Shown here one piece after another: positions 1 through 46,840 of a stretch of 64,000 nt of DNA; the first letter of the stretch is position 1, and the number at the start of each line of letters is the position of its first letter. The stretch comes from Apostichopus japonicus (taxonomy: Eukaryota > Echinodermata > Holothuroidea > Aspidochirotida > Stichopodidae), in the NCBI RefSeq assembly GCF_037975245.1, contig NC_092561.1:3887001-3951000 (forward strand), in the 5' to 3' direction. Made by a program: the position numbers and the translations under genes. Under the pieces are notes generated by a model that was not told where the DNA came from, made no database searches, and saw only the letters and a program-made list of their open reading frames with translations.

Positions 1-168
1 ATCCAATTAATATGTGTCAAAATATGTGTCAAAATACCCGTACGTATTTATTGGAATGAATCATTAATGTGTGTTCTCTATAGACAATCATTAACGTATG
101 ACATTTTACAGGTTCTACAGTATGGTCACTTAGCTTAAGGCGGTAATTTTGAAACACAAATACAGACG

Positions 169-20329: not shown

Positions 20330-21096
20330 GAATTGCTTAACGGACAAAGGTGGTGGCTCACTTTTCTTTTCCTTTCAAGTAATTCTAGTGAAATGATGTA
20401 AACTAAGAAGACCGATCTTAATCATCATGATCCGTTTCATATTAAAGTTTCTAGTTTGTTTCAGCAAATGTTGATAATTCCGTCCTCATCAGTTGTATAA
20501 CCAGCCTTTGATATTCAAGTGTGGTGTATGCTCTGGATATTCGTTTCTTTCATGTATGTTTTCCAGGAAGACTTTATTCTGGAGTCTGTTGGAAAGAACA
20601 TTTATAAAGTTACAAACGTTGATCCAGTTCTCTATAGTTTTGAAGCACAGCTAACAAATCCCTTCTTTTCTTTTCTTCTTTCCATTCTTGCCTGTTATGT
20701 TCCCTTTTCTGTCCTTTGTTGTTTATTTTCTTGTTAATCAACTTAAGTTAGCATTGCGATGTCTTGTCAACACGGTACCATTACAGTATCTCGTTAGAAT
20801 TCTTAATTTTTCTTCTTCAATTCCGTAAAGGAAATAGTAAACAAGTTTTGCACTTTAGTTTCATGTATATTGGGTTTGGGACATAACTTCTACTTATTTG
20901 TATACTATTACTTGAGCTATTAGTATTATTTTCAAGCAAAAACTATCTTTAAAGTTATAAACATTATATGCTACTGCCATACATAAAGTCAATACAGGAA
21001 GATGATATCCTTGGTGATATTATCTCACTTGAATGTACCCTTTAATTGTTATTACATCAGAGTATCCCGATAACATTTATGTTACTACTAGTAATA

Positions 21097-23310
21097 TTAA
21101 AGTAAGGAACACTGAGATATACTCACTAGACTATAACAAAACATCTTTCCTGACCGTGATGTAGCTACAAGTAGCTTCTCTCCCTCCTCTGTCATCAATG
21201 TTGTCATACACCGTGCTGCCTCTTCTGTCCGTTTGGTTGTCAAAATCTGCTGACCATCTTGACTGTACTGTGTGATGATACACTTTCCATCACCATACCA
21301 CAAGATGTATACAAAACCTGCCCTGTCTGCACATATACTGTAAGGATACCAAGTCTCTCCGTCAATAGCTGGTTTCGGAAGCTTGTATAATAACTCTGCC
21401 TCTGCTTTAGATGTATCCATGGTTACAGCGTATGCACATCTACTCTTTACATCGCATATCAGCAGAACGCCTTCATGATAAAGGATATCTTTTGACCATC
21501 TTATAATCTCTTGCAGCTTCAGAGCTCGAATGAACTTCAATTCTTCATCAAATATGAATAGCAATCCAATATTTAGTGTACCTACAATTATGTGGCCACG
21601 TACAGGATCAGTAGTTATACAAGTCACATACTTCACATCCACCGTTTTGATGTCATCAAAGAGGGACGTGATATTATTTTGAGTAAAGGACCCATCATAG
21701 ATATTATAAACACCAACCTGATTGGATGTACAAACTGCTATCTTATCACCTGATAAAGCAGCACAGTGACTACTGGGAAAAAGAGAGCTCCCTTTGGCAA
21801 AATCTATCTTGTCATGACGAATCTGACATCCTTGTCTGTTCAAGACAGTGATAAATGAATGTTCATATGATAATGTCCCAGAGACAACGATGTTACCAGA
21901 GCCGGTACTTGTTATACCAGTTATACAAAACCCATTACCTTTGATCATATCAATATCAACAACAGATTCTACATTATCCAATATATTTACTCTATCAAAA
22001 CACAATATTGGTAAATCATCCATTGTTACATCAGATAAAGATTCCATTTCTGGAAAATCTTTCATCATATCCTCAACTAGGGGTTCGCTCGCAGCTCTTA
22101 TATCAGGAATACACTGTGCATCAGTCCAGTGGTTATGTGATTCAAGGACTCTCGAAGCTATAGTAGACAAATTTTCAAACTTATTGACCCATTGATTACA
22201 AAGATCTGATAAGTTTTGTGTTTCTCTAAGCTTGCGTTGCTGTTGTTCTTCTATTGTTTTGTTTCTCTCATTCATTGCTGCATCAAGTTTGTTCATTGTT
22301 TCGTCAATCTTTAATTCTCTGTTTTCTATTTCGTTTCGTTTGGTATCCTCTTTCTCTTTTGATTCCCTAATTTTAATTTCAATCATCCTGTCGTACTCGT
22401 CTCTTATTTTTCTAATTTTCTCTTCCATTTCTGATTCTAATTCTTTCAATTCTTTTCGAGTCTTTTCGTCGAGAACTGTTTTGAATCTGTTGAATTCTCC
22501 CTGTTCTTTCTCTTTTTTATTCTTTAACTTCCTGGTCTGATCTTCGTACTGCGTTTTCCATTTTGCTTTTGTATCTGCAACGATTGATGTAAGTTCTGCA
22601 TTTACCTTGTTTATCTTATCAGTTAAGCTGGGTACATTTTCTTTCCGTTTTACAAGTTCTTCCAATCTCTTCTGCAACTTCTCTCTTTCTTCTTTCGACA
22701 CATTCGCAACGTCTTGTAGGTCATGACCTTTGTGTTCTCCGTACGTACATGTCAAACAAACAGGGTGGTTTCCACAAGTACAACAACACAACTGAGCCAT
22801 GTGTTCCGGGTGAGTATGACACCTTGGAGCTTCCACCAATGATGCAAGTTTTTCTTGTGTGAGACTTTTTCTCTCAAGATCATTCAGAGCTAATACGTGT
22901 TTCTGATGTTTGGCAAATATCTTCTTGGTCAAATGAAATTGATAACACTGGACACAAAGAAATTCTTTACACATAAAACAGTATGCTGTAACCTTTAACT
23001 TCTCTTCACAGCCAATACATTCCCTCTCTTCTCTGTTTTCAAATGTTTTCTGTAGCTGAATAAACTGCAGCATACTTTTCATATGGAAGTCAGTCTTGAA
23101 TCCATCTATCCTATTGTTTGGTATTTTACAGACATCTTTACAAAGAGGACATTCAAATGTACCAACTTTGCCTTCTATTATAGGTTCCAGACATTGTTTA
23201 CAAAATCTATGCAGACACGGTAATAGTTTCGGTTCTTTAAACAGATCCAAACAAATTGAACATTCAAAGAATTTATCTTCGATGTCATTCCAATGCGATG
23301 GGCAGGCCAT
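21097..23310 (-). CDS. TRIM-type RING/B-box/coiled-coil/propeller protein, copy D (737 aa)
   Basis: Intact paralogue of the gene at 7,946 with identical length and domain order. The RING is at residues 17-57 (CSICLDLF, CLHRFCKQC, CPLC), the B-box 1-like finger at about 98-138 (CIGCEEK, CFMCKEFLCVQC), and B-box 2 at about 164-200 (CCCTCGNHPVC, HKGH). A coiled coil spans about 220-400, with a beta-propeller-like C terminus. Most residues are identical. Differences cluster in the second half of RING, between the B-boxes and in the propeller (for example DKIAVCTSN against DKIASVCESN). Small compensating indels keep the length. The start is MACPSHW, after the same 3' splice-site sequence as copy C. 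Zinc ligands and frame are preserved in both copies, so both are probably functional and the variation may affect target binding (inference). Confidence 0.9.
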   Translation of the reverse strand: MACPSHWNDIEDKFFECSICLDLFKEPKLLPCLHRFCKQCLEPIIEGKVGTFECPLCKDVCKIPNNRIDGFKTDFHMKSMLQFIQLQKTFENREERECIGCEEKLKVTAYCFMCKEFLCVQCYQFHLTKKIFAKHQKHVLALNDLERKSLTQEKLASLVEAPRCHTHPEHMAQLCCCTCGNHPVCLTCTYGEHKGHDLQDVANVSKEEREKLQKRLEELVKRKENVPSLTDKINKVNAELTSIVADTKAKWKTQYEDQTRKLKNKKEKEQGEFNRFKTVLDEKTRKELKELESEMEEKIRKIRDEYDRMIEIKIRESKEKEDTKRNEIENRELKIDETMNKLDAAMNERNKTIEEQQQRKLRETQNLSDLCNQWVNKFENLSTIASRVLESHNHWTDAQCIPDIRAASEPLVEDMMKDFPEMESLSDVTMDDLPILCFDRVNILDNVESVVDIDMIKGNGFCITGITSTGSGNIVVSGTLSYEHSFITVLNRQGCQIRHDKIDFAKGSSLFPSSHCAALSGDKIAVCTSNQVGVYNIYDGSFTQNNITSLFDDIKTVDVKYVTCITTDPVRGHIIVGTLNIGLLFIFDEELKFIRALKLQEIIRWSKDILYHEGVLLICDVKSRCAYAVTMDTSKAEAELLYKLPKPAIDGETWYPYSICADRAGFVYILWYGDGKCIITQYSQDGQQILTTKRTEEAARCMTTLMTEEGEKLLVATSRSGKMFCYSLVSISQCSLL

Positions 23311-23329
23311 TTTTGTCTCGAAATTATAT

Positions 23330-24290
23330 CTGTAAAGAAAATTATGATTAATGTTAATTAATATCATAATTTGGATTTACAAATTGAGAGCATAAAAAAT
23401 TAAGTAGAAAGACCTTCAATAAACTGAATTCAATAACTTTTCTTTGTAACCTACGGTATGAATGGTATTTCTTGCCCTATAAACACAGAAGTCGAGAAAT
23501 TGGTGCAACTCGATCACTGACATAATGGAACTGTTCAGATACTTGTGGTTGATGAGATATACAGTATGTGTTTACAAGCTGTTTTTTTACTATTTCCCAT
23601 TAAGCCCCACCAACTCATGAATATGGAAAAGGTCAACGTTGTTGCAAAGAGCATGTACTTACTATGTTGTTACATCACTATACCAAGTATGAACTAAATC
23701 AGACATAGGGTTGAAGAGATATTGCCATTATATGAATTGTATGTTAACTCCGCCCACTCATCAATGTGCATGTAACGGGTAGCACAAACAATAGAGAACA
23801 ATTAATCAACATAGGGCATCTACCTACTGTACTAAGCATGACATTGACTCAACTTGTGCTTCTTGATGCAGCAAACAAAGCCCCCCCCCCCAACACACAC
23901 GCCATCACGATTACAAAGGTTACCAAGCCTTCAGCATCATATAACCACAAAGAGTCACTCAGTGGCATGAGCAGTGGAGGAAGGGAAGGGGCAAATTTAA
24001 CTTTTCCCCAATTGATTAAGGTATGGCGTTTAAACTTTGTGAATGGGCCAGAGGAGAATGAGCAATTTTAAATGGGGGAGGGGGGGGGGGATGGACTTCT
24101 TCCCAATTATTACTTGACAAGTAGAGTTATTCTGTGATATATATTATGTTACTTGTGAGTAACTGTTTTAGAAAGCAATTTTAAGTGTCTATGCTAAAGT
24201 AACAGGTTGTAACAGTATGTAATTGTTAAATGTAAGAATTTAAGAATTTGTTGCGATATATTGGTACAAAAAAATAACATGCACGGTTTT
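23330..24290. other. 5' flank of TRIM-D
   Basis: Matches 10,179-10,940 and then, across the sites of two copy-C insertions, 11,780-11,970 and 13,140-13,200. It contains a poly-C run at 23,881 and a poly-G run at 24,078. No exon was recognised. Confidence 0.55.
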
Positions 24291-26035: not shown

Positions 26036-27893
<1,858 letters not shown>

Positions 27894-28055
27894 ATCCAAT
27901 TAATATGGTCAAAATATGTGTCAAAATACCCGTACGTATTTATTGGAATGAATCATTAATGTGTGTTCTCTAAAGACAATAATTAACGTATGACATTTTA
28001 CAGGTTCCACGTTATGGTCACTTGGCTTAAGGCGGTAAATATGAAACACAAATAC
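27894..28055 (+). promoter_or_regulatory. Displaced 5' flank of SWSAP1-B
   Basis: This is the part of copy B that lies upstream of the start codon in copy A (1-158), including ATTTATTGGAATGAATC and GGCTTAAGGCGGTAA. In copy B it is now 13.7 kb from the ATG. Promoter function is inferred from position only; no TATA box or initiator was identified. Confidence 0.4.
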
Positions 28056-28790
28056 CTGTTTGAACGTAGCAGCCACTAAGAGCAGCCACTAACAGCAGCC
28101 AATAGTGTATACATCAACGTTACACGCCGTTGGCCACTGATGTTTGTACACTGTGACGAGCGCTGGGTACGCTGTGGCGGGAAAGTGGATCCCCAGCAGC
28201 CACTAAGGGCAGCCTAAATTAGCGGACAATAACAAGACTGCTACTTTTTCGTACCTGTTTTAAAGCGATAATAATTAACGCTATGAATACTGTAAAATGC
28301 CAATAATTGCACCATATGAGAGATGAGTTGTTGCTCTTTCATGTAATATAATTTTGGAATTTAATGGTGGACGAAATCTGCATCCATATTGAACTGAAAC
28401 TTGTGATCCTACCAAATCTTGTGGAGAAAGGCGTAAATGGCGGCAATTTTTATACCATTTTTTTTCTTTTTTTTTCAAATGTCTAAACAATTAATTTATG
28501 AGAATATGCAACAGTCAAGAGGGGTACAATGACGATGTTAAGTTATTCCTCTTACACGTGGTATGAAAAAACAGCCAGTAACACTTTGATTTATTGAAAT
28601 TCGATGGCTACAAACCGTTCGATCCTAACAGGAGTGGGATGCAAATGGGAAAATTAGCTCGAAACGCGCGGTAATGTGTTATGATCCAAACGTATTATAC
28701 GTATTATTATTTCAAAATCGGTTAATTTGAGTTATCGACCTAGTTAGGAGGTCCGGTTAGCATCAAATCAAAGAAAACAATATCTTCTTT
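28056..28790 (+). repeat. Left terminal region of the foldback element
   Basis: Starts with three CAGCCACTAA-type motifs (28,069-28,105) matching the inverted right end at 41,722-41,760; another CAGCCACTAAGGGCAGCC is at 28,195-28,212. The remainder is unique, noncoding sequence that grades into a degenerate first satellite unit near 28,740. Confidence 0.75.
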
Positions 28791-31700
28791 CACGTGTAAT
28801 ACCTACTATCGGTTACAAAGCCGATTTTTTTGACCAAAAGTGGCCTAAACGTTTTAAAATATTGATATTTTTTTTTCTTCTTCAAAATCATTTAATTTTA
28901 GTTATGGAGCCTACTGGCATGTCTGGTTAGCACCACATTCAAGTAGAAAGGTTCCTCTTTCACGTGGTATACCTCTACTATCGGTAACAAAAATGATTTC
29001 TTGACCAAAAATGGCCTTAAAGTTTTAACCCCAATACGGACATCTCTAAACGCGCTGTATATACGTAGTGTGTAATGATCAGAAATATTTATGATTTTTA
29101 TTTTTTTCAAAATCGATTAACTTTAGTTATGGAGCCTACTGGCATGTCCGGTTAGCACCACATTAAAGTAGACAGGTTCATCTTTCACGTGATATACCTC
29201 AACTATCGGTAACAAAATTGATTTCTTGACCAAAAATGGCCTTAAAGTTTTAACCCCGATACGGACATCTCTAAACGCGCTGTATATACGTAATGTGTAA
29301 TGATAAGAAAAATGGTTAATTTTTATTTTTTCAAAATCGATTAACTTTAGTTATGGAGCCTACTGGCATGTCCGGTTAGCACCACATTAAAGTAGACAGG
29401 TTCATCTTTCACGTGATATACCTCTACTATCGGTAACAAAAATGATTTCTTGACCAAAAGTGACCTTGAAGTTTTAACCCCGATACAGACCCTTCTCTAA
29501 ACGCGCTGTATATACGTTATGTGTAATGATCAGAAATATTTATGATTTTTATTTTTTTCAAAATCGATTAACTTTAGTTATGGAGCCTACTAGGATGTCC
29601 GGTTAGCACCACATTAAAGTAGACAGGTTCATCTTTCACGTGGTATACCTCTACTATCGGTAACAAAAATGATTTCTTGACCAAAAGTGACCTTGAAGTT
29701 TTAACCCCGATACGGACATCTCTAAACGCGCTGTATATACGTTATGTGTAATGATCAGAAAAATTTATGAATTTTATTTTTTTCAAAATCGATTAACTTT
29801 AGTTATGGAGCCTACTAGGATGTCCGGTTAGCACCACATTGAAGTAGAAAGGTTCCTCTTTTACGTGGTATACCTCTACTATCGGTAACAAAAATGATTT
29901 CTTGACCAAAAGTGACCTTAAAGTTTTAACCCCGATACGGACCACTCTCTAAACGCGCTGTATATACGTAATGTGTAATGATAAGAAAAATGGTTAATTT
30001 TTATTTTTTCAAAATCGATTAACTTTAGTTATGGAGCCTACTAGGATGTCCGGTTAGCACCACATTAAAGTAGAAAGGTTCCTCTTTTACGTGGTATACC
30101 TCTACTATCGGTAACAAAAATGATTTCTTGACCAAAAGTGACCTTGAAGTTTTAACCCCGATACAGACCCTTCTCTAAACGCGCTGTATATACGTTATGT
30201 GTAATGATCAGAAATATTTATGATTTTTATTTTTTTCAAAATCGATTAACTTTAGTTATGGAGCCTACTAGGATGTCCGGTTAGCACCACATTGAAGTAG
30301 AAAGGTTCCTCTTTTACGTGGTATACCTCTACTATCGGTAACAAAAATGATTTCTTGACCAAAAGTGACCTTGAAGTTTTAACCCCGATACTGACATCTC
30401 TAAACGCGCTGTATATACGTTATGTGTAATGATCAGAAAAATTTATGAATTTTATTTTTTTCAAAATCGATTAACTTTAGTTATGGAGCCTACTAGGATG
30501 TCCGGTTAGCACCACATTGAAGTAGAAAGGTTCCTCTTTTACGTGGTATACCTCTACTATCGGTAACAAAAATGATTTCTTGACCAAAAATGGCCTTAAA
30601 GTTTTAACCCCGATACGGACATCTCTAAACGCGCTGTATATACGTAGTGTGTAATGATCAGAAAAATTTATAATTTCTATTTTTTTCAAAATCGATTAAC
30701 TTTAGTTATGGAGCTTACTGGCATGTCCGGTTAGCACCACATTAAAGTAGACAGGTTCATCTTTCACGTGATATACCTGTACTATCGGTAACAAAATTGA
30801 TTTCTTGACCAAAAATGGCCTTAAAGTTTTAACCCCGATACGGACATCTCTAAACGCGCTGTATATACGTTATGTGTAATGATCAGAAAAATGTTAATTT
30901 TTAATTTTTTTCAAAATCGATTAACTTTAGTTATGGAGCCTACTAGGATGTCCGGTTAGCACCACATTAAAGTAAAAAGGTTCCTCTTTTACGTGGTATA
31001 CCTCTACTATCGGTAACAAAAATGATTTCTTGACCAAAAGTGACCTTGAAGTTTTAACCCCGATACAGACCCTTCTCTAAACGAGCTGTATATACGTTAT
31101 TTGTAATGATCAGAAATATTTATGATTTTTATTTTTTTCAAAATCGATTAACTTTAGTTATGGAGACTACTGGCATGTCCGGTTAGCACCACATTAAAGT
31201 AGAAAGGTTCCTTTTTCACGTGGTATACCTCTACTATCGGTAACAAAAATGATTTCTTGACCAAAAGTGACCTTGAAGTTTTAACCCCGATACGGACCAC
31301 TCTCTAAACGCGCTGTATATACGTAATGTGTAATGATCAGAAATATTTATGATTTTTATTTTTTTCAAAATCGATTAACTTTAGTTATGGAGCCTACTAG
31401 GATGTCCGGTTAGCACCACATTAAAGTAGACAGGTTCATCTTTCACGTGATATACCTCTACTATCGGTAACAAAAATGATTTCTTGACCAAAAATGGCCT
31501 TAAAGTTTTAACCCCAATATGGACCACTCTCTAAACGGGCTGTATATACGTAATGTGTAATGATCAGAAAATGGTTAATTTTTATTTTTTTCAAAATCGA
31601 TTAACTTTAGTTATGGAGCCTACTAGGATGTCCGGCTAGCACCACATTAAAGTAGACAGGTTCATCTTTCACGTGATATACCTCTACTATCGGTAACAAA

Positions 31701-32460
31701 AATGATTTCTTGACCAAAAATGGCCTTAAAGTTTTAACCCCGATACAGACCCTTCTCTAAACGAGCTGTATATACGTTATTTGTAATGATCAGAAATATT
31801 TATGATTTTTATTTTTTTCAAAATCGATTAACTTTAGTTATGGAGCCTACTAGGATGTCCGGCTAGCACCACATTAAAGTAGACAGGTTCATCTTTCACG
31901 TGATATACCTCTACTATCGGTAACAAAAATGATTTCTTGACCAAAAATGGCCTTAAAGTTTTAACCCCGATACAGACCCTTCTCTAAACGCGCTGTATAT
32001 ACGTTATGTGTAATGATAAGAAAAATGTTAATTTTTAATTTTTTTCAAAATCGATTAACTTTAGTTATGGAGCCTACTAGGATGTCCGAATAGGACCACA
32101 TTAAAGTAGAAAGGTTTCTCTCTCACGTGGTATACCTCTACTATCGGTAACAAAAATGATTTCTTGACCAAAAGTGACCTTAAAGTTTTAACCCCGATAC
32201 AGACCCTTCTCTAAACGCGCTGTATATACGTTATGTGTAATGATCAGAATTCCTTTTTTTTTAAATCGATTAACTTTAGTTATGGAGCCTACTGGCATGT
32301 CCGGTTAGCACCACATTAAAGTAGACAGGTTCCTCGTTCACGTGGTATACCTCTACTATCGGTAACAAAATGATTTCTTGACCAAAAGTGGCCTTAAAGT
32401 TTTAACCCTGATACGGACATCTCTAAACGCGCTGTATATACGTTATGTGTAATGATCCAA
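28791..32460 (+). repeat. Outer satellite array, left arm (~226 bp x about 17)
   Basis: The anchor CTCTACTATCGGTAACAAAA recurs about every 226 bp (28,972; 29,200; 29,430; ... 32,357), with a divergent first unit near 28,805. Each unit reads AATCGATTAACTTTAGTTAT, GGAGCCTACTAGGATGTCCG, then TCACGTGATATACC or TTACGTGGTATACC. It continues TTCTTGACCAAAA, AAGTTTTAACCCCGATAC, and CGCGCTGTATATACGT. Short minus-strand open frames inside units are shadows. Confidence 0.95.
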
Positions 32461-32469
32461 AAAATGATT

Positions 32470-33080
32470 AATTCCTGTGTGGGCAATTGGGCCTTTAAGG
32501 TTGCTGCATGGGTCCCGTTACAGTTAAAATATGAAGTCGTTGGTATTTTTGGATACCGCAATGTCCAATAGGGCCAACACCTCTAAACGAATTATCCTGC
32601 TTTTTGTTAACATAATCAAATCACGTGTGGGCCATGGGCCCTTGAAGCCATGGTAGAGGATAAATTTGTAGTCATAGGTTTTTCTTTTTTTAATACCCGA
32701 CAACCTTATGGTCCAGCGCCAATAAAAAGAAATCATACTGCTCTTTTTTCACATGATTAAATCATGTGTGGGCCACGGGCCCTTTCTGGCTGCTGTATGG
32801 GTCCTGGTACATCATAAAGTTGTTGTTAGTAGTATTTTTGGATACCCCAATTTCCAAAGGGTCCAATGCCACTTTAAGAATCACCCTGCTCTCATTTCAC
32901 ATAAATGAATCATATGTGGGCCACAGGCCTTTTTTGGTTGCTGCCTGCATGGGCCCATGTACATCATAAAGTTGCTGTAATTAGCATTTTGGGACACCCC
33001 AATGTTTAACTGGTGTACCGCAAAATGAATTATCCTTGTCTCTTTTCGCATGATTAATACCATTTTGATGGGCCCTTCTG
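32470..33080 (+). repeat. Inner satellite, left arm (~130 bp, about 4-5 degenerate units)
   Basis: Units share GTGTGGGCCA-GGGCCCTT, GCTGCATGGGTCC, GGTATTTTTGGATACC and CACATAATCAAATCA-like pieces. The first unit (32,470-32,610) is mirrored closely at 33,690-33,850. Confidence 0.8.
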
Positions 33081-33480
33081 CAGGGCCCGTCACAAGGTAC
33101 AATTACTGTCATTGCTATGGTTCTAAAAGTATCTTACTTTGAGTTTTATCCAGCGCTTTTGCCTTTCGTCTTTCACATGATTAAATCAACATTTGAGCCC
33201 CCTATTTTAATTGAAGGCACATTTAGACTACATACACGCACATTGTGTGGCACGGCAGCAACACATAACCTTGAATCCTGGTCATAAACGGACATAAGCT
33301 GCCCATTAAACCCTCTGTCTCTTTTCAAATCTTCTGGGTTCCCGGTCCAGTTGAGTATCGAATCGATGCAGACTGGGTTGAAAGTAAACGCGGGCCAAGT
33401 GCAGTGCAATGCAATAAACTAGGCTCACATCACTGCAAGATGCGAGCCATCATAATGACGTCACAGGTCGATTTACTGCA
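33081..33480. other. Unique core of the foldback element
   Basis: About 400 bp between the inverted inner satellites. No frame longer than ~78 codons, no recognisable protein, RNA or splice structure. It is too small for a transposase. Confidence 0.65.
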
Positions 33481-33857
33481 AATTTATCCTCTACCATGGC
33501 CCAGACAACATCAAGGGCCCATGGCCTACGCTTGATTTGATCATTTGCAAAGACACAAGGATTATTCTATAGTTGCATTGGACCCTTTATACATTGGAGA
33601 AACCAAAAAATACCATCTACGACTTTTATCTGTACCGGGCCCCAGGCAACAGCCATAAAGTGCCCATGGCCCACACATGATTTGATTATGTTAACAAAAT
33701 CAGGATAATTCTTTTAGAGGTGTTGGCCCTATTGGACATTGCGGTATCCAAAAATACCAACGACTTCATTTTTAACTGTAACGGGGCCCATGCAGCAACC
33801 TCAAAGGCCCAATTGCCCACACAGGAATTAATCATTTTTTGGATCATTACACATAAC
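33481..33857 (-). repeat. Inner satellite, right arm (inverted, about 2-3 units)
   Basis: Reverse complement of the left inner satellite: CCATGGCCCACACATGATTT (33,664) pairs with the copy near 32,625, and TGGACATTGCGGTATCCAAA (33,734) with that near 32,555. It ends in the start of an outer-array unit (ATCATTACACATAACGT). Confidence 0.85.
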
Positions 33858-34052
33858 GTAAATATATGTTGAATTTGACATGTTGATAGACGTAATGGCA
33901 TATTGGTATTTTGTCTCGATATGTTCATATGGAATTGTAACATGTTGATATCGAATTGGACATATATATTAACTTGGACACTCCACTTTCTTTTTCGACA
34001 TTTATGGAACGTTTGGCTCTCCGTACTCTTCGACTGTCTTTGTGTTATGTTT

Positions 34053-34394
34053 TCACTTAGTTTTGTATGAACTGATCATCTGATCACTGTATCGTCTCTG
34101 TATTCCAATCAAGTCTTGGTAATAAACAGAAAGTAATTCATCAATTCTTTTCATGTTGCGATCACTCAGCTGATTAGATTTAAGAACTTTCATTCTCGAT
34201 TCAGCATGACCAATTGTTCGTGGTACCGAAACTTTACGAACGTTTCTGGTAATACTATTTATATCTACATCTATATTAGTATGTCGGTTCAAGTCACCGA
34301 GAAGTAACCCAGACCAAAAAGCAGATGACGGTAATAAAACAGTCTCCAATTCTTTCATAAGTACTGGAGAGTAAAATAGATTGGGATCATACAT
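34053..34394 (-). pseudogene. Fragment of a transposon-derived protein
   Basis: A 113-codon frame contains FWSGLLLGDLNRH, then GHAESRMKVLKSNQL, then RIDELLSVYYQDLIGIQRRY. The spacing of 'W-LLLGDL-RH', a short 'E-K-LK' helix and 'R-D-Y-L-G' recalls the C-terminal part of MULE/SWIM-related transposon proteins in invertebrates (recognition, low certainty). The 5' side is interrupted by the hAT element at 34,408, so the gene is broken. It could be a relic of the factor that mobilised neighbouring elements, but nothing here shows that. Confidence 0.4.
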
Positions 34395-34407
34395 TTGTTC
34401 TTGTATT

Positions 34408-35413
34408 CACTGGCGGATCCAAGGGGGGGGGGCCAAGGGGGGCCATGCCCCCTCCCCCCAAAGGTGAGCAAAAAAGTGTTTCCGAACATCCGCTAAATCG
34501 TATGATTGGAAATTTAAAAAATCGAGAGGAATAGCAGTGGTAGACTAGTCTAAACCTTTTCGTTTTCTGGTTTAAAATTAAATGCAGAGCTCCCAACTGA
34601 CCCGCGATTCGCGGGAATTAGACCCGCAGTCTAACACCCAAACCAGCTGACCCGCACAAGCGTCCGAAAAAACCGCATTGTAATTGTCAAGTATACATAA
34701 AAAAAATTTGCATCGAATTTTGACTTAGCAACCATCATTTCTTTGGCATTTAGCATAATAGAGTATAAAACCTCCTTTACAGCATCATTTGAACCTTTGA
34801 ATTGGGGCGAGCAGCGAACATTTTGCCACGGGAAAGAATGAATTATCACCTACTATTCAATTTATTGGTGTTACACAAAAAAAAATGCATATTTCTCAGA
34901 AAATTTTGGGTGACAAAAGCCTTTCTAAGTGCCACCATTTTACATGTAGGCATCACCAGGATTCCCAAAAAATTCAATAGGGGAGGGGGACACCCCCTCC
35001 CCTTATACCCCTCCCCCAGGACGGCGATTCGTGGCATGGACCAGCATTTGCCTTCTCAAGAGTTGGGAGCTATGTAAATGTATGAGCATGAGGATTTACA
35101 GTTTAACACCATTTTGCAGTTACAGGCTGGTTGTAAGAAATTTATAACCTATGAGAAATAAAATTTCTTGAGAAAGATGATCCCAACTTTGTTTTATAAA
35201 TATTTTAGAAAATTACATCTGGGAAACATTTTTTTTAGAAGTAAATTAACATCACCATTGTACACTTTTGTCGCACCAAATTGCATCTGAGGGCATTCAG
35301 CAATAGAAAATTTTCCAAAGGGGAGGGGGACACCCCATCCCCTTAGACCCCTCCCCATATCACTCTAATGCCACTTTGGCCCCTCCCAAACAGAGGCCCT
35401 GGATCCGCCAGTG
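34408..35413. mobile_element. hAT-type nonautonomous element (1.0 kb)
   Basis: The ends are CACTGGCGGATCCAAGG and, reversed, CACTGGCGGATCCAGGG. A perfect 8-bp target duplication CTTGTATT lies at 34,400-34,407 and 35,414-35,421. These ends and the 8-bp duplication are typical of hAT elements. There is no transposase frame; it is G/C-run rich and hosts the MITE at 34,585-35,074. Confidence 0.9.
34585..35074. mobile_element. Small MITE, copy 2 (inside the hAT element)
   Basis: Begins CAGAGCTCCCAACTGACCCG and ends AGTTGGGAGCTATG, with flanking TAAATGCA and TAAATGTA. The interior matches 13,871-14,377 in the opposite orientation (for example GCGAGCAGCGAACATTTTG). This gives the nesting order foldback > insertion > hAT > MITE. 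Confidence 0.78.
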
Positions 35414-35957
35414 CTTGTATTTGATATGCTACTGGATGAAACTAAGTGTGAATATAGGGTTTGTCATGTCTCATAGAGAGTCTGTTTAACTTATAAGACG
35501 TTTTATTGTTGTGATAATATTACAAATTATACTTTTACAAAGAGGTAATGAGAAGAGAGATTAATATCGTCAGTCATTCTTTAGAACCTCAAGATCATAC
35601 TGCAGGATGATTCGTACTAGTGAACAAAAGTATCCGATCGTGTGTTAAATGTACAATGTATTCCACACAGACTTCATGTTGGTTATATGTGGTCTTATGG
35701 TACGATGTGAAGATTTTCTTGTCATGCCTCAAAAAGGTAAATGACTAACTTCTTTTGAAAGAAAATACAGTACGACGAAAAGTTATCAATTTTATTTGTT
35801 TACATATTTTGTCTATATAGTCTTATATTTCGGTACAGGTGGAGCACAGAAGTAGATTTGATACAAACAGTAGCTATGGAGCACAAATATTCAGTTTGTT
35901 CCGACAAGAAGGACAAAATTGAATCATAATTAAATCTAATCAAGAAATCAGTTTTGT

Positions 35958-38900
35958 TAGGGGTCTGTATCGGGGTTAAAACTTCAAGGTCACTTTTGGT
36001 CAAGAAATCATTTTTGTTACCGATAGTAGAGGTATACCACGTAAAAGAGGAACCTTTTTACTTTAATGTGGTGCTAACCGGACATCCTAGTAGGCTCCAT
36101 AACTAAAGTTAATCGATTTTGAAAAAAATTAAAAATTAACATTTTTCTGATCATTACACATAACGTATATACAGCGCGTTTAGAGAAGGGTCTGTATCGG
36201 GGTTAAAACTTTAAGGCCATTTTTGGTCAAGAAATCATTTTTGTTACCGATAGTAGAGGTATATCACGTGAAAGATGAACCTGTCTACTTTAATGTGGTG
36301 CTAGCCGGACATCCTAGTAGGCTCCATAACTAAAGTTAATCGATTTTGAAAAAAATAAAAATTAACCATTTTTCTTATCATTACACATTACGTATATACA
36401 GCGCGTTTAGAGAGTGGTCCGTATCGGGGTTAAAACTTTAAGGTCACTTTTGATCAAGAAATCATTTTTGTTACCGATAGTAGAGGTATACCACGTAAAA
36501 GAGGAACCTTTCTACTTCAATGTGGTGCTAACCGGACATCCTAGTAGGCTCCATAACTAAAGTTAATCGATTTTGAAAAAAATAAAAATCATAAATATTT
36601 CTGATCATTACACATAACGTATATACAGCGCGTTTAGAGAAGGGTCTGTATCGGGGTTAAAACTTCAAGGTCACTTTTGGTCAAGAAATCATTTTTGTTA
36701 CCGATAGTAGAGGTATACCACGTGAGAGAGGAACCTTTCTACTTTAATGTGGTCCTATTCGGACATCCTAGTAGGCTCCATAACTAAAGTTAATCGATTT
36801 TGAAAAAAATTAAAAATTAACATTTTTCTGATCATTACACATAACGTATATACAGCGCGTTAAGAGAAGGGTCTGTATCGGGGTTAAAACTTTAAGGCCA
36901 TTTTTGGTCAAGAAATCATTTTTGTTACCGATAGTAGAGGTATATCACGTGAAAGATGAACCTGTCTACTTTAATGTGGTGCTAGCCGGACATCCTAGTA
37001 GGCTCCATAACTAAAGTTAATCGATTTTGAAAAAAATAAAAATTATAAATTTTTCTGATCATTACACATAACGTATATACAGCGCGTTTAGAGAAGGGTC
37101 TGTATCGGGGTTAAAACTTCAAGGTCACGTTTGGTCAAGAAATCATTTTTGTTACCGATAGTAGAGGTATACCACGTAAAAGATGAACCTTTCTACTTTA
37201 ATGTGGTGCTAACCGGACATCCTAGTAGGCTCCATAACTAAAGTAAATCGATTTTTAAAAAAATAAAAATTAACCATTTTTCTTATCATTTCACATTACG
37301 TATATACAGCGCGTTTAGAGATGTCCGTATCGGGGTTAAAACTTTAAGGCCATTTTTGGTCAAGAAATCATTTTTGTTACCGATAGTAGAGGTATATCAC
37401 GTGAAAGATGAACCTGTCTACTTTAATGTGGTGCTAGCCGGACATCATAGTAGGCTCCATAACTAAAGTTAATCGATTTTGAAAAAAATAAAAATTAACC
37501 ATTTTCTTATCATTACACATTACGTATATACAGCCCGTTTAGAGAGTGGTCCGTATCGGGGTTAAAACTTTAAGGCCATTTTTGGTCAAGAAATCATTTT
37601 TGTTACCGATAGTAGAGGTATATCACGTGAAAGATGAACCTGTCTACTTTAATGTGGTGCTAACCGGACATGCCAGTAGTCTCCATAACTAAAGTTAATC
37701 AATTTTGAAAAAAATAAAAATCATAAATATTTCTGATCATTACACACAACGTATATACAGCTCGTTTAGAGAAGGGTCTGTATCGGGGTTAAAACTTCAA
37801 GGTCACTTTTGGTCAAGAAATCATTTTTGTTACCGATAGTAGAGGTATACCACGTAAAAGAGGAACCTTTCTACTTTAATGTGGTGCTAACCGGACATCC
37901 TAGTAGGCTCCATAACTAAAGTTAATCGATTTTGAAAAAATAAAAATTAACCATTTTTCTTATCATTACACATTACGTATATACAGCGCGTTTAGAGAGT
38001 GGTCCGTATCGGGGTTAAAACTTTAAGGTCACTTTTGGTCAAGAAATCATTTTTGTTACCGATAGTAGAGGCATATCACGTGAAAGATGAACCTGTCTAC
38101 TTTAATGTGGTGCTAACCGGACATGCCAGTAGTCTCCATAACTAAAGTTAATCAATTTTGAAAAAAATAAAAATCATAAATATTTCTGATCATTACACAT
38201 AACGTATATACAGCTCGTTTAGAGAAGGGTCTGTATCGGGGTTAAAACTTCAAGGTCACTTTTGGTCAAGAAATCATTTTTGTTACCGATAGTAGAGGTA
38301 TACCACGTAAAAGAGGAACCTTTTTACTTTAATGTGGTGCTAACCGGACATCCTAGTAGGCTCCATAACTAAAGTTAATCGATTTTGAAAAAAATTAAAA
38401 ATTAACATTTTTCTGATCATTACACATAACCTATATACAGCGCGTTTAGAGAAGGGTCTGTATCGGGGTTAAAACTTTAAGGCAATTTTTGGTCAAGAAA
38501 TCATTTTTGTTACCGATAGTAGAGGTATATCACGTGAAAGATGAACCTGTCTACTTTAATGTGGTGCTAACCGGACATCCTAGTAGGCTCCATAACTAAA
38601 GTTAATCGATTTTGAAAAAAATAAAAATTAACCATTTTTCTTATCATTACACATTACGTATATACAGCGCGTTTAGAGAGTGGTCCGTATCGGGGTTAAA
38701 ACTTTAAGGCCATTTTTGGTCAAGAAATCATTTTTGTTACCGATAGTAGAGGTATATCACGTGAAAGATGAACCTGTCTACTTTAATGTGGTGCTAACCG
38801 GACATCCTAGTAGGCTCCATAACTAAAGTTAATCGATTTTGAAAAAAATAAAAATCATAAATATTTCTGATCATTACACATAACGTATATACAGCGCGTT

Positions 38901-41605
38901 TAGAGAAGGGTCTGTATCGGGGTTAAAACTTCAAGGTCACTTTTGGTCAAGAAATCATTTTTGTTACCGATAGTAGAGGTATACCACGTAAAAGAGGAAC
39001 CTTTCTACTTTAATGTGGTGCTAACCGGACATCCTAGTAGGCTCCATAACTAAAGTTAATCGATTTTGAAAAAAATAAAAATCATAAATATTTCTGATCA
39101 TTACACATAACGTATATACAGCTCGTTTAGAGAAGGGTCTGTATCGGGGTTAAAACTTCAAGGTCACTTTTGGTCAAGAAATCATTTTTGTTACCGATAG
39201 TAGAGGTATATCACGTGAGAGAGGAACCTTTCTACTTTAATGTGGTCCTATTCGGACATCCTAGTAGGCTCCATAACTAAAGTTAATCGATTTTGAAAAA
39301 AATTAAAAATTAACATTTTTCTGATCATTACACATAACGTATATACAGCGCGTTTAGAGAAGGGTCTGTATCGGGGTTAAAACTTTAAGGCCATTTTTGG
39401 TCAAGAAATCATATTTGTTACCGTTAGTAGAGGTATATCACGTGAAAGATGAACCTGTCTACTTTAATGTGGTGCTAGCCGGACATCCTAGTAGGCTCCA
39501 TAACTAAAGTTAATCGATTTTGAAAAAAATAAAAATTAACCATTTTTCTGATCATTACACATAACGTATATACAGCGCGTTTAGAGAAGGGTCTGTATCG
39601 GGGTTAAAACTTCAAGGTCACTTTTGGTCAAGAAATCATTTTTGTTACCGATAGTAGAGGTATACCACGTAAAAGATGAACCTTTCTACTTTAATGTGGT
39701 GCTAACCGGACATCCTAGTAGGCTCCATAACTAAAGTAAATCGATTTTTAAAAAAATAAAAATTAACCATTTTTCTTATCATTTCACATTACGTATATAC
39801 AGCGCGTTTAGAGATGTCCGTATCGGGGTTAAAACTTCAAGGTCACTTTTGGTCAAGAAATCATTTTTGTTACCGATAGTAGAGGTATATCACGTGAAAG
39901 ATGAACCTTTCTACTTTAATGTGGTGCTAACGGACATCCTAGTAGGCTCCATAACTAAAGTTAATCGATTTTGAAAAAAATAAAAATTGTAAATTTTTCT
40001 GATCATTACACATTACGTATATACAGCGCGTTTAGAGAGTGGTCCGTATCGGGGTTAAAACTTTAAGGTCACTTTTGGTCAAGAAATCATTTTTGTTACC
40101 GATAGTAGAGGTATACCACGTAAAAGAGGAACCTTTCTACTTCAATGTGGTGCTAACCGGACATCCTAGTAGGCTCCATAACTAAAGTTAATCGATTTTG
40201 AAAAAAATAAAAATCATAAATATTTCTGATCATTACACATAACGTATATACAGCGCGTTTAGAGAAGGGTCTGTATCGGGGTTAAAACTTCAAGGTCACT
40301 TTTGGTCAAGAAATCATTTTTGTTACCGATAGTAGAGGTATACCACGTAAAAGAGGAACCTTTTTACTTTAATGTGGTGCTAACCGGACATCCTAGTAGG
40401 CTCCATAACTAAAGTTAATGGATTTGGAAGAAAGAAAAAAATCATTTTTTGGATCATTACACCTGAGATATACAGCGCGTTTAGAGATATCCGTATCGGG
40501 GTTAAAACTTCAAGGTCACTTTTGGTCAAGAAATCATTTTTGTTACCGATAGAAGAGGTATACCACGTAAAAGAAGAACCTTTCTACTTTAATGTGGTGC
40601 TAACCGGACATCCTAGTAGGCTCCATAACTAAAGTTAATGGATTTTGAAAAAAATATAAATAAATAACCATTTTTCTGATCATTACACATTTCGTATATA
40701 CAGCGCGTTTAGAGATGTCCGTATCGGGGTTAAAACTTCAAGGTCACTTTTGGTCAAGAAATCATTTTTGTTACCGATAGTAGAGGTATACCACGTGAAA
40801 GATGAACCTTTCTACTTTAATGTGGTGCTAACCGGACATCCTAGTAGGCTCCATAACTAAAGTTAATCGATTTTGAAAAAAATAAAAATCATAAATATTT
40901 CTGATCATTACACATAACGTATATACAGCGCGTTTAGAGAAGGGTCTGTATCGGGGTTAAAACTTCAAGGTCACTTTTGGTCAAGAAATCATTTTTGTTA
41001 CCGATAGTAGAGGTATACCACGTGAAAGAGGAACCTTTCTACTTTAATGTGGTGCTAACCGGACATGCCAGTAGGCTCCATAACTAAAGTTAATCGATTT
41101 TGAAAAAAATATAAATAAATAACCATTTTTCTGATCATTACACATTTCGTATATACAGCGCGTTTAGAGATGTCCGGATCGGGGTTAAAACTTTAAGGCC
41201 ATATTTGGTCAAGAAATCATTTTTGTTACCGATGGTAGAGGTATACCACGTGAAAGAAGTACCGTTCTACTTTAATGTGGTGCTAACCGGACATCCTAGT
41301 AGGCTCCATAACTAAAGTTAATCGATTTTGAAGGGGAAAAAAATCATTTTTTTAGATCATTACACCTTAGATACAGCGCGTTTAGTGATGTCCGTATCGG
41401 GGTTAAAACTTTAAAGCCACTTTTGGTCAAGAAATCATTTTTGTTACCGATAGTAGAGGTATACCACGTGAAAGATGAACCTGTCTACTTTAATATGGTG
41501 CTACCCGGACATCCTAGTAGGCTCCATAACTAAAGTTAATGGATTTAAAAAAAAAATCATTTTTCTGATCATTACACTTTAAGTATATACAGCGCGTTTG
41601 GGGTT
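35958..41605 (-). repeat. Outer satellite array, right arm (inverted, ~226 bp x about 25)
   Basis: Reverse complement of the left array. The anchor GTTACCGATAGTAGAGGTAT recurs about every 226 bp from 36,016 to 41,446. The last few units (from 40,430) are more divergent and vary in the A-rich spacer. Rare variants recur ~2.49 kb apart (36,700 and 39,200; 37,170 and 39,665), showing a duplicated block of 11 units. Confidence 0.95.
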
Positions 41606-41772
41606 TTATTTTCGCCAATCTAGCGTTTTTTCGTCATCTGTCGCTGGTAACACTGGTTAGAACAAACACACACGACCGCAGTTGTAGTACTGTGTGTCAT
41701 GTCTTACTGTCCTTTTTTTCTTAGTGGCTGCTGTTAGTGTCTGCTCTTAGTGGCTGCTACCTTCAATGAGGC
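41606..41772 (-). repeat. Right terminal region of the foldback element
   Basis: After the last satellite unit (AGCGCGTTTGGGG) come ~110 bp of unique DNA and three TTAGTGGCTGCT-type motifs (41,720-41,758), inverted relative to 28,066-28,110. It ends TTCAATGAGGC just before the target duplication. Confidence 0.8.
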
Positions 41773-41788
41773 AACACAAATACAGACG

Positions 41789-44700
41789 ATGTCTTCTTAT
41801 GTTTTACAGCGAATGTTTCCTCCGTTACTTAATAAATTGTCTGATGGTGAACGTAACCAGAAAAATAGTTATTTGGTGAAAGAAACAATATTGGGATCAA
41901 AATTCCTATGTCAAGAAACCAGACTGGTGCTATATGGGCCAAACCCAAGGTTTATAGTCTCGTTACTTTTGTGCAATGGGCCTAGGCCTAGGCCTACTTC
42001 CCTTACATTACAGTTACACTAAGGCGAAGCGCCAAGTCTTTAAGCTAGGGAGTAGGATTGCACAAGTTCTATGCTAGTAGTAGTATGCTACTAGCCTAGT
42101 AGTAGTACAGTAGTACTTACTGTAGGCTAGGCCTAGGCCCTACTTTAAGCAGTAACTAATAATATCTGAATAAAGGCTAAGGTCTACTGCCCGACTGAAT
42201 TGAACTTGATCGTCTTGTTATGGAAAGTTACCGATGGTAGGGCAGCATGTGTTCTCAAGTTTAGACTAATTTTAAAATGTGCCATCATTCATGACAAGGA
42301 AATCCACCATGTACAGTAATATATGTAGGCAGGACTAACACTCACAGTAACACCTAATAAACATGTTTTTGCCGACCTACTGTACATTCAACCATGTGTG
42401 GCATTTTACAACAACTGCTCAGTTTCAACAAATGTTTGCATGTACAAATACATGCAACAATTTTGCATATCATGTGAGATGTGACCCATATGAGCACTGG
42501 TCAGTCACAGCGCTACAGTATGTTTGCTTGTCCTCAGTTATTCAGTGTGTTAGGGACAGCATGTTTTCTCTTTAATGGACAGCAACGTTATAGCCTACAG
42601 GGGTACAGTATTGATCCAGATCATGTATTTGAGCTAGGAGATGAATAGGAACATAGTACAAAGAGCAAAGTGGCACAAGTTTCTCAAACACAGGCACAGA
42701 GGAGTTGTATACAAGCTTGACTGTACATGTACGTACAGTTCGTTTTGAAGTTAAAACTTGTTGTGGTAACATGTGTTTAGCAAGAACCCATGTGAAAATA
42801 GTATTCATGACCAATAGCGATTTCTCTAGTCCTTTGTACTGTACACTGTACTACTGATAAATCTAACAATTATCTGTATACTGAAACTGATGCAAGGTTG
42901 AAATTGCAATTTAAAATTCTTGCAAAGACAAAACTGCTTTAATTTTAATTTTCAGTGATAATGCAGCCTTGCTATTCCAGTGTGCTGTTTCTTTTGCCAT
43001 GGAAGGCCATACAGTGATTTTTATTACGCAAGAGAAATTGATGTCCTTACCGATTGCTGTTGAGGGATCCCAGAAACCAGACCCTAGACTTATGAAACAG
43101 ATTATTATCAAGTATGAATCTTGTGATTTTATCACTTTTCTACAGTGTGCTTTATGTTCATAGCTTTAAATGATGTCTGTGTTGAGAATTGGAAACACAG
43201 TAGGTGTACTGTACAGTATTATAATAGTCCACTCATGACTTTCACACAGTAATGTGAAATCAAGTGTCCAGCTTCAGGCCCACTTGTCAGGATCTTCCTT
43301 GAGGACTGAGACACAACCCTCAGAATGCATGAATACTAGCTTACTGTAAACTGATGTGATGGACCTTGATCTATCTCCCCTAGCAAGTTCTATAAACTGT
43401 ATTAAATTAAACTTGCCCATTTGGGCTCCATATGCAGATGTGAAAAAGTTTAATTAGAAAATGTTCAGTGTTCTTGAGAGCCAATAGTGTATTAACTTTG
43501 TAAAAGACATTTGTTGTATTTGAGAACCAATCTTTGCATAGATCTCAACACACTAAGAGATTAGAAATTTAGACTTGTACATCACTGCTGTAGCAACTTA
43601 TGGATAACTGACCATGAAGAGAGTCATAAATTGTTCACTTTAAAAATGATTTTACACTAATTAACACATACATTCGTATGTACCCATACTTTCTGTACTT
43701 GTAACATTTCCACACAACGCAAGTATAATTGGAGCTGAAATGACTTTAAATTACCCCTTGCAAGCCTCAATAGCGTCTGTAAAGGGATTATACAGTACTT
43801 TCTGTTTTTTATATAAATTTGATTCTTCTCATTCCCTCATAGATATTTTTCCAACCGTTCTTCTCTCCTTTTGGAACTGACACAGATACATTCAGCTAAT
43901 CCAGCACCAGATATTATCATTGTGGATAACCTGGACTTTTACATATCTAATCCTAAGGTATATTTACAGAATATCAGCTTTCTGTATTCCAAATTATTTG
44001 ATATATTTTTATCCAATATATTTTGTGTTGGGTCTTCTGTAGATCTGTTTGAAAAGAATATCCTGAATTAGCTGACAGCAGCTCACCACAGATTACGATT
44101 CAACATGCATTATATTGTATGTAGTCTACTGTGTACTTTGTGTAGGTTTATAATCAGGTAAATTATGTATTTCATGACACCTGCTGGTAAAATGCAGAGG
44201 TAGTGGATGAAACTACACACCTCCGTGAGTGAATGTACCTGTAGGTCAAAGTTAGAAATGATTTTTCTCCGCTAGGGTTACTTCCTCTGTTTGTGAGATA
44301 TCATAGTTTAAATCTCATGTCAGGAGGCTGCCATATTGACGTCATCAGTTTGGTGTTGTAGTACGTAACATTAGGATATGAACCTGTGACTTTACCTTTA
44401 CTCCTTAAACACTTTTTATCATGACTTTACCTTTACTCTCCTTTAATAGTTACAATCGTGTTGACATTGCAGCCAGTCCCAATGCAGCACATGTTAAAAC
44501 CTACATAGGCCTATATTTTTAAGTTTCAGCATTAACAAAAACCATCTCTCTTCCATAAAATAGATTTACACTTAATACTCAGCACCTGTCCTGTTTTTCA
44601 TGATATGTCATACACAAAGTCTCTTTTCTTTTTCCAGTATAACTTAAATCTCTCAACTCTGTTTTGACATCATCTTTAAATTTTCTCCAGACTAACAGCA

Positions 44701-46488
44701 TTTGCCAAGTGACAGCAGCACTCTGTGCCCATTTAATTGATGCAGCCACTTACCTTGCCAGCAAAAGGTAAACTGGAATTGACTGTACACAGTACACAGC
44801 TACAACCAGTTGTTGCACTTGCAATGCATATTCATTGACAGGTCATCTATACACTGGTCAGTGACTCATTTTAATGCATATTCATTGACAGGTCATCTAT
44901 AAACTGTCAGTGCACACCCATTTGGGACAATTTTGTTCTATACTGTAATGTCACGTCCCGCTTTCAGAGCACTCGTATTATCAGCATGAACAGTATGAAC
45001 ATCGTGTTTCTATCAGTTAAAGGTTAGGAACTGTTGTACTGTCAATATGAGTGCTTTGAAGCATGGATAGTACAGAGTGGTACTAGCAGTTAGGAAACTG
45101 TCCCAATTGGCTGGTCAGTGACTCATTTTAATGCATATTCATTGACAGGTCATCTATACACTGTCAGTGCACCAAGTTAAGACAATTTTGTTCTTTACTG
45201 TAATGTCATGTCCCGCTTTCAGAGCACTCATATTGTCAGTATGAACATAGTGTTTCTATCAGTTAAAGGTTAGGAACTGTTTGCACTGTCAATATGAGTG
45301 CTTTGAAGCATACTAAGGGAGGATAGTACAGAGTGGTACTAGCACTAGGAAATTGTCCCAACTGGCCGGCCAGTGACTCATTTTAATGCATATTCATTGG
45401 CAGGTCATATAAACATTTGTCAGTGTCAGTTTTCTTCAATTGCATAGTCAATGAAAGCTAATCTGCACTAGGGCAGATATATACAAGATGTTGGCAAATG
45501 TTTGTGTGCTTTCTAACAATGCATGCTCAGAAAAGGGCATTTATGAATATACATTAACAAGTGGAAAATGAAGCAATTCTCTGCATTCAGTGCATTCAAC
45601 AAGTAGCGTCAAGTTTGCAGAGGATACCAAGTTTGCATCATTCATGTCGTGGATATAATGAGTTCATTTTTATTTTTCCAGAGCCAAGACTGAGCCACTG
45701 AGTGCATCATTAGTACCTACCTGCGTACTCGCATCAATCTCTACGTCGGCCAGTGGTTCTTTCATTCCGTCAATGGACGTTTACAAGAAGTTCTTCCCAT
45801 TTACTTTCACTGTAACAGGTAGAGTGTGCTAAATCATCATAGACAACTCTACTTGATATATTTGACCCAAGATAGCATTCTAAACTGACAGCCTCAATGA
45901 AGCACCTTACATCTGTATGATGTTCCTGTCTTAGTGTCACACCAGCAACTCCTGTGTTACTTAGCCAGCATCCAAATATTACAGAATTGCATCATAAACA
46001 GATTTGCAGGCCTACATCAGTACTTCAAAACATGTGTTGACATTTGTTTATGAGATGCATAGCTAATTGAAGGGAAATATCAAAGAAATTGTACATGGTG
46101 AGCTCCTGTGTAGTGCCATTAATTGGCAACACAGCTGTTCAATTCCATTCAGCTTTGGTGTTTACATAAACATGACTTGTAAGGTACAAATGTAGATAAG
46201 ATATAAATACAATGTTACATGGTAAATCCATGTAGGGTGTCTTGGTCACCTAAAACTAGCAGTTCTCAACATGCTATGTTTTATGACATCCAGTAAACCT
46301 TTATTCTCCTCATCACAGACCTAGAGGATGCTAACAACCTGAAGCAGCTTCAGTGCTGGATTGTAGATGAAGAATTACCACAATATGTAATCACTGTGGA
46401 GGTAACGGATACCATCAGAATTAAGGATGTTATGAAAGGATCAGAGCTGGATGCTGATTGGTCACAACCATATGAATCAGTCACATGA
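41789..46488 (+). CDS. SWSAP1: SWSAP1-like ATPase, copy B (6 exons, 271 aa)
   Basis: Exons 41,789-41,949, 42,956-43,111, 43,843-43,957, 44,691-44,767, 45,682-45,818 and 46,319-46,488 have exactly the lengths of copy A and the same splice phases. The 271-codon frame is open with TGA at 46,486. It differs from copy A by scattered substitutions: N-K and F-Y in exon 1, and IVL to TVI in exon 2. At the Walker A position GPNPSDNT has become GPNPSDNA, so the hydroxyl residue is also lost. The Walker B-like PDIIIVDNLDFY is intact. The start codon lies 6 nt after the target duplication of the 13.7-kb foldback element, so the ancestral 5' flank is now at 27,894-28,055. Expression may depend on sequence in the element. 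The frame is open, so either the insertion is recent or the gene is still used. Confidence 0.8.
44823..45420 (+). repeat. Tandem duplications in SWSAP1-B intron 4
   Basis: The ~49-bp unit (CATTGACAGGTCATCTATA) occurs near 44,830, 44,880 and 45,140. A larger segment with GTCCCGCTTTCAGAGCACTC and GTGTTTCTATCAGTTAAAGG is present twice (44,950-45,110 and 45,205-45,370). Copy A has only one of the larger unit. Confidence 0.78.
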
Positions 46489-46840
46489 CACAACACATTC
46501 CATTACCAAGGAGATAACACACACCCATTATGAACGTTATGAAAGGATCAAAGCTTTGATGTATGATTCATCACAAGCATCTGGTTCAGTTATTACACAG
46601 CTCATGTGTTCAACCCATCACCATTATGGATGTTATGAATGGATGAGAGGTGGGTGCTGATTGGTCAAAATCATCTGGTTTAGTCACATGACAAGACACA
46701 TAGGATCACCATGGAGTTAACCTACACCCATCAGCAGTATGGATGCTATGAAAAGATCAGAGGTGGGTGCTGATTGGTCAAAAGCATCTGGTTAAGTTAA
46801 ATGACATAACACATATGATGCTGATTGGTCATAAGTTTGT
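46421..46840 (+). repeat. Imperfect tandem repeat that includes the end of SWSAP1-B
   Basis: Counterpart of 4,622-5,040. Units carry GGATGTTATGAAAGGATCAG, GGTGCTGATTGGTCAAAA and CATCTGGTT. The first unit is coding and contains the stop codon. Confidence 0.75.

Follow-up and report, generated by a model that had tools for sequence, protein, structure and literature searches.

A satellite-armed foldback transposon family in the sea cucumber Apostichopus japonicus, probably of the Mutator/Rehavkus kind

The 64,000-nucleotide stretch of the Apostichopus japonicus genome analysed here (the window; C1:3887001-3951000 of an assembly of 671.6 Mb in 35 contigs) carries at 28054-41772 a single copy, 13,719 bp long, of a dispersed transposon family. 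Between its ends lie two arrays of the same satellite, in opposite orientation, and between these arms lies a core (Table 1). We consider it likely, with a probability of roughly 0.8, that the element belongs, as a non-autonomous member with a foldback shape, to a cut-and-paste family of the Mutator/Rehavkus kind, that its arms have grown in place and that its core inverts by way of the arms. That the element is a foldback transposon with satellite arms had been proposed in a sequence-only reading of the window, and is borne out by conserved ends, 9-bp target duplications, inverted arms and a satellite that is confined to elements among the matches listed.

The element tips, ACCTGTTTGAACGTAGCAGCC and (inverted) GCCTCATTGAAGGTAGCAGCC, stand directly beside the target duplication and form imperfect inverted repeats from the tip inward; the TAGCAGCCACTAAGAGCAG noticed earlier at the inverted ends is indeed present. 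Tandem copies of a 13-bp motif (AGCAGCCACTAAG) follow inward of both tips, and may be binding sites for a transposase. The direct repeat at the edges, first taken to measure 11 bp, is a duplication of 9 bp (AACACAAAT): the longer version was rejected because other copies of the family start with ACCTGTTTG straight after their 9-bp duplication, which assigns the extra 'AC' to the element as its first two bases, matching the next two target bases by chance. The edges given earlier (28056..41772) are corrected accordingly to a start at 28054. An uninterrupted target was correctly recognised in a paralogous block of the window, at 153-161 rather than at 148-158. Positions 1-163 of this block align with 27894-28055 at 94.5% and positions 153-2768 with 41773-44441 at 90.8%; the empty site is paralogous rather than allelic. 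The window holds two old segmental duplications of about 90-91% identity, 1-6170 / 41773-47981 and 7261-10943 / 20368-24090, and the transposon splits one copy of the former.

Interrogating the genome with the first and the last 21 bases of the element, at up to two mismatches, gave 51+56 matches for the left end and 53+43 for the right, in excess of chance since reversed or control 21-mers gave 0+6 and 0+0, respectively. Ends were paired by bracket matching within 45 kb, using the 100 left ends listed of the 107 counted and 85 right ends (14 of the 96 sites, all variants with two mismatches, were dropped and three other right ends added). This produced 63 pairs, from 359 bp to 36,787 bp in length, whose flanks were confirmed for only part of the pairs. 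Checked against their source genome, the termini are those of a dispersed family with conserved ends, and the further full elements with target duplications that the sequence-only reading anticipated were found: 23 of the 25 elements for which the fetched loci held both flanks have a perfect duplication, of 9 bp. Twenty-two of the 26 flank comparisons printed are 9/9; two of the other four are mispairings within a nested pair on C3, where 27568093-27587913 is inserted in the right terminal region of 27567996-27604782, and the outer element, re-read, is also 9/9. Because the first 630 bp of 29 left ends (of 30) differ on average by 1.6% and at most by 4.6%, much of the dispersal of the family is recent. 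At C1:18638341-18640192 (L045) a second short element starts six bases beyond the right end of a 14.8-kb element, and a core copy of the nested C3 element contains parts of a long terminal repeat (LTR) retrotransposon (L082 1932-3212, L088 3-1208; C3 near 27573-27576 kb).

The two inverted arrays of one satellite described earlier are present at 28867-32465 and 35961-41599, with units of 215-228 bp, mostly 225-227 bp (the slice used for anchoring units, and for the comparison with the 760-bp member below, stopped nine bases short of the element's end). Identity between units is the same within and between arms (left-left 92.4%, right-right 92.2%, left-right 92.4%). A 24-base word from the unit has 1,339 exact copies in the genome, compared to none for the control. 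Of these, 100 sites, all on C1, were listed: 99 fall between the paired ends of three elements and the remaining one lies, by eye, 1.2 kb inside an unpaired left end (C1:12717816). A search with the full unit gave 222 candidate regions, of which 27 were scored and yielded 589 matches; all of the 150 matches listed fall inside 20 elements that together span 0.3 Mb. Their strand is that expected from a split at the element midpoint in 141 of 150 cases, the other nine lying near the middle or in a nested pair. No free array was found among the 100 of 1,339 word sites or the 150 of 589 unit matches, so that a satellite existing mostly as ordinary arrays without these termini is not what the listed matches reveal. 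Seen from the ends, the satellite begins at a near-constant position inside 30 of 30 left-end loci and is present within 29 of 30 right-end loci (the exception is L044).

The core does not have a fixed orientation. Relative to the ends, 15 of 24 copies are flipped and nine are not (L065 and L075 being oriented by a single end; three transposase-rich remnants, L078, L086 and L087, were excluded from the count and are all unflipped). On a tree of cores the observed orientations require at least six changes, of which the strongly supported branches alone force three. Clustering of orientation on the tree is not clear: 87 of 500 shuffles (flipped) and 78 of 500 (unflipped) need as few changes. No paper on loop inversion in foldback elements was found in the one open-licence library searched.

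The core also carries the 3' remnant of a transposase, of which the window copy retains only the E part. In an intact relative, L091 (1,946+ amino acids), the corresponding protein has PHD, DDE-like, UCH and Ulp1 domains; the PHD finger (residues 185-228, E 3.4e-5) recurs in P0001 and P0004, and neither the window copy nor the family copies read retain the part that bears it. The D, D, HxCxxH and E motifs align in the intact relative and up to nine further relatives. That the mobilizing factor is encoded elsewhere, as was first suggested, therefore holds for the window copy, with one correction: what survives as the core comes from the transposase gene of the family itself, and hence the kind of factor (PHD-DDE-UCH-Ulp1, Mutator/Rehavkus-like) can be named. 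PHD, DDE-like, UCH and Ulp1 parts are joined in a single long protein encoded by L091 662-6499 and by intact-looking relatives, for example at C12:23370126, C4:13382921, C3:51159, C8:17331395 and C14:1017334; frames of equal length at two and at four places suggest that some may be recent copies of one another. Compared with L091, a relative at C16:30306411 and C16:30303585 stands closer to the family in the first-D region (68%), though not in the last exon (49%), and its frames are short. A Holothuria leucospilota protein with 55% identity over 35% of the query is the one named relative; an alignment-based homologue search gave only distant or irrelevant matches. No paper on a PHD-UCH-Ulp1 transposase was found in the one open-licence library searched, and the passages of the Ginger paper that touch the matter note ubiquitin- and SUMO-protease domains separately, in other transposons (PMC2836005).

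Several results count against our reading. An intact autonomous copy with these ends, the relative that the sequence-only reading had suggested looking for, was not found in a two-piece protein search of the genome, which is why the mobilizing enzyme is inferred. A 117-amino-acid piece gave 57 matches (64 of 64 candidates scored), those in family sequence all truncated or frame-broken; a 119-amino-acid piece with the first catalytic D gave 26 matches (36 of 36 scored), with family-sequence copies in the same condition, the sole long match at family level being a degraded source copy on C8 and the next reaching 68%. Pfam returned no match to a Mutator-like (MULE) family for the DDE region of seven sequences, the best Foldseek match is weak (E 0.012, with none at E <= 0.001), and a first AlphaFold2 model was poor (mean confidence score, pLDDT, 49) and not used. 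Two of the 25 elements lack a perfect duplication (C14:26098156, 7/9; C3:13396426, 2/9). The tree of cores has little depth: resolution is lacking for 12 of its 21 inner branches, the bootstrap had not settled and one row covers 19% of columns. Finally, the outer arm units are no more alike within than between elements: 244 of 500 shuffles of 170 outer units from 21 elements (the three to five outermost units of each) reach the observed value. Homogenization of arms within an element, tested in this way, thus gives no signal in the outermost units; a pair of identical (100%) units in the window, L06/R06, is one case of left/right identity within an element.

This last result is what would be expected if sequence moves between copies, and it lends some weight to a different origin of the core orientations: gene conversion or template switching between copies, giving chimaeric elements, or aberrant transposition via hairpin or circular intermediates. 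Chimaeric copies and growth of terminal inverted repeats by copying are described for Galileo in the sections of PMC3573991 that bear on this. Nonetheless, the near-identical cores of L068, L083, L084 and L085 (support 100/98) include three flipped and one unflipped, with ends and 9-bp duplications intact, and are explained most simply by a single exchange between the inverted arms of one element; we regard an origin between copies as unlikely, while giving it appreciable weight.

Descent from the Mutator/Rehavkus group could itself be questioned, if the element were a TU- or FB-like foldback to which the transposase piece is a mere passenger. Such a view is in keeping with a core that is truncated and non-coding as a whole, and with the failure to find an intact enzyme with these ends. 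It is nevertheless improbable: every one of the many core copies carries the same transposase piece, the 9-bp duplications fit the Mutator/Rehavkus group and, in a 7.6-kb copy with the same ends (C10:11850831-11858461), the left satellite is followed immediately by remnants of DDE and UCH coding sequence that stand in the ancestral orientation.

The members of the family form a series that bears on the origin of the arms. In the short member L092 the tips are 644 bp apart; it has about 120 bp on the left and 103 bp on the right in common with the window element, and nothing in it matches the satellite. A good target duplication, looked for by eye, was not seen. L093, of 760 bp, contains a single satellite unit in right-arm orientation that is about 83% like those of the window, and shows, by eye, an 8/9 duplication. 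No more than about 11 bp separates the plus and minus arrays that meet head to head in L013, L023, L025, L028 and L030, and no more than 142 bp in L039; longer members have a core between the arms. The series fits growth in place and loss of the core, although the order of events is our inference. Capture of a free genomic satellite by a transposon that then dispersed it would have precedent, as exchange of sequence between satellites and transposons is known (PMC10218199, in the part consulted), yet it is very doubtful here given the lack of any free array among the matches listed, the single diverged unit between the same ends in the 760-bp member, and a right arm whose outermost units are the most diverged (unit 0 at 89.7%, compared to 93% inward). 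Least credible is the notion that assembly errors created the inverted arms or, if not the arms, then the core orientations: arms of several kilobases made of near-identical repeats are hard to assemble, but unrelated loci repeat this layout, with perfect duplications, and among short elements there are flipped cores (in those of 7.9, 9.6 and 10.2 kb) as well as unflipped ones (in those of 10.7 and 11.9 kb).

Returning to a foldback-shaped member of the Mutator/Rehavkus kind, the following mechanism can be proposed. A PHD-DDE-UCH-Ulp1 transposase supplied in trans would recognize the outer 60-120 bp or so of each end, these being common even to the shortest member read, and would move the whole element. 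The satellite would descend from a unit that the element already contained and that unequal exchange multiplied in situ; when the inverted arms recombine with each other, the core would be turned while ends and flanks stay untouched, and loss of the core would yield the short head-to-head members. A more far-reaching picture, to which we give somewhat less than even odds, is that of a transposable satellite: a repeat with hardly any existence outside the paired inverted arms of a single family of giant transposons, the arms being a recombination engine that inverts the core and resizes the element (from about 8 to 26 kb and more), transposition needing only the outermost 100 bp or so, and the family being served by PHD-DDE-UCH-Ulp1 transposases with their own deubiquitinase and SUMO protease.

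Table 1. Features of the window copy of the transposon and its empty site (window coordinates).
Feature	Position	Strand	Evidence
Natural empty site: lone target AACACAAAT in paralogous block	153..161	.	
Left target-site duplication AACACAAAT, 9 bp	28045..28053	.	direct reading; 9/9 compared to right copy
Left terminal inverted repeat, tandem copies of 13-bp motif AGCAGCCACTAAG	28054..28112	+	107 genome matches of first 21 bases, <=2 mismatches
Left subterminal region, single-copy within element	28113..28866	+	near-constant satellite start in 30/30 left-end loci
Left arm, tandem array of ~227-bp satellite, 16 anchored units	28867..32465	+	
Inner inverted repeat, first arm	32435..32643	+	
Core (loop), ~3.5 kb, flipped relative to ends	32466..35960	.	
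Inner inverted repeat, second arm, 95.7% compared to first	33658..33864	-	
Open transposase remnant, 117 amino acids, with proposed catalytic E (PRTIGHAESRMKVLK)	34053..34406	-	
hAT-like non-autonomous insertion, ends CACTGGCGGATCC, 8-bp duplication CTTGTATT	34408..35413	.	
Right arm, inverted array of same ~227-bp satellite, 25 anchored units	35961..41599	-	
Right subterminal region	41600..41715	.	
Right terminal inverted repeat, tandem copies of 13-bp motif	41716..41772	-	96 genome matches of last 21 bases, <=2 mismatches
Right target-site duplication AACACAAAT, 9 bp	41773..41781	.	9/9 compared to left copy

By eye, diverged satellite-like units occupy the inner side of the left subterminal region (28460-28860). 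An inner satellite of about 130 bp had been reported in inverted orientation; the inversion is real (32435-32643 against 33864-33658) but the diverged units are nearer to 150 bp (period 152 in Tandem Repeats Finder). Family copies L075 and L077 are without the hAT-like insertion of the core, and a related piece (87.9%, inverted) lies at 13871-14377. Elsewhere in the window are 198 perfect tandem copies of (AAT) a short way upstream of the element (26787-27380), a 26-bp minisatellite in two arrays (48480-49989, about 59 copies; 51005-51246, about nine copies) and a 59-bp tandem repeat (54609-55241; 10.7 copies, 96% matches).

The foldback architecture as such is already known, from Rehavkus-1_TC, Tetris and Galileo; new are the length, the confinement of the satellite (among the matches listed), the inversion of the core and the naming of the likely transposase type. 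The element has the features of the foldback class, namely long inverted tandem-repeat arms around a loop, and mobility evidenced by target-site duplications and an empty site; no paper on such an element in holothurians was found in the one open-licence library searched. TU of sea urchins and FB of Drosophila have the same layout of inverted tandem-repeat arms around a loop, but are set apart by the short repeat units for which they are known.

Published accounts, as far as the parts seen extend, allow closer comparisons. The 9-bp duplication falls within the 8-11 bp given for MULEs (PMC6446971), and the intact relative has a DDE region with an insertion bearing the C/H motif, another MULE feature, of which the window copy keeps only the E part. 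Rehavkus elements are described from Arthropoda and Annelida as having 9-bp duplications, a PHD finger and a minisatellite (PMC6446971), with satellite or minisatellite repeats in or beside the inverted termini (PMC10218199, PMC6446971); both the duplication length and the repeats are found here. Compared by description with Rehavkus-1_TC of Tribolium castaneum (Repbase), which has a 164-bp unit (PMC10218199, PMC6446971), the present family has a unit of about 227 bp, elements that reach 26-37 kb and, in the window copy, 16 units in one arm and 25 in the other; it also differs by UCH and Ulp1 domains in intact relatives, by recurrent core inversion and by a host outside the two phyla listed. 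Tetris of Drosophila virilis (PMC4079207) is likewise a non-autonomous foldback with tandem repeats of about 220 bp in inverted arms and a satellite born inside the transposon; it has a short relative that shares its ends (DAIBAM), and a copy of its transposase has not been found. Its duplications are 8-10 bp compared to 9 bp here, its arms reach at most 1,735 bp compared to several kilobases, and free arrays of its repeat, with up to 66 copies, exist beside those in the arms, whereas none are present among the matches listed here; moreover, the transposase type is nameable here from the core. Galileo of Drosophila (PMC3688188, PMC4168063, PMC3573991) resembles the family in its long inverted arms, which lengthen through tandem repeats of about 140-210 bp within them, and in its short two-arm members, and its repeats hold extra transposase-binding sites; it differs in belonging to the P-element superfamily, in its 7-bp-type ends, in its longest arms of 4.2-4.7 kb and in an unrelated transposase. 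The Mutator/foldback element Tm1 of root-knot nematodes (PMC3169594) shares asymmetric outer end motifs, unequal numbers of arm repeats and mostly 9-bp duplications, but has units of 13-15 bp and small elements. Of the earlier judgement that unit and arm are unusually large, the part on arm and element length stands; the unit itself is of ordinary size beside Tetris (~220 bp), Galileo (~140-210 bp) and Rehavkus-1_TC (164 bp), as far as these are described.

The family touches upon old questions: how satellites originate and spread, and why foldback arms grow. That a satellite can disperse as part of a transposon, as the sequence-only reading supposed, is evident from the dozens of copies that carry it as mirror-image arms. 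In its intact relatives a transposase is joined to both a ubiquitin-hydrolase and an Ulp1-type domain. Through the recurrent inversion of the core, recombination of long inverted repeats with each other can be counted directly in an animal germ line, and a single chromosome-scale assembly contains a series of elements with the same ends in which satellite birth, arm growth and inverted-repeat recombination are traceable copy by copy.
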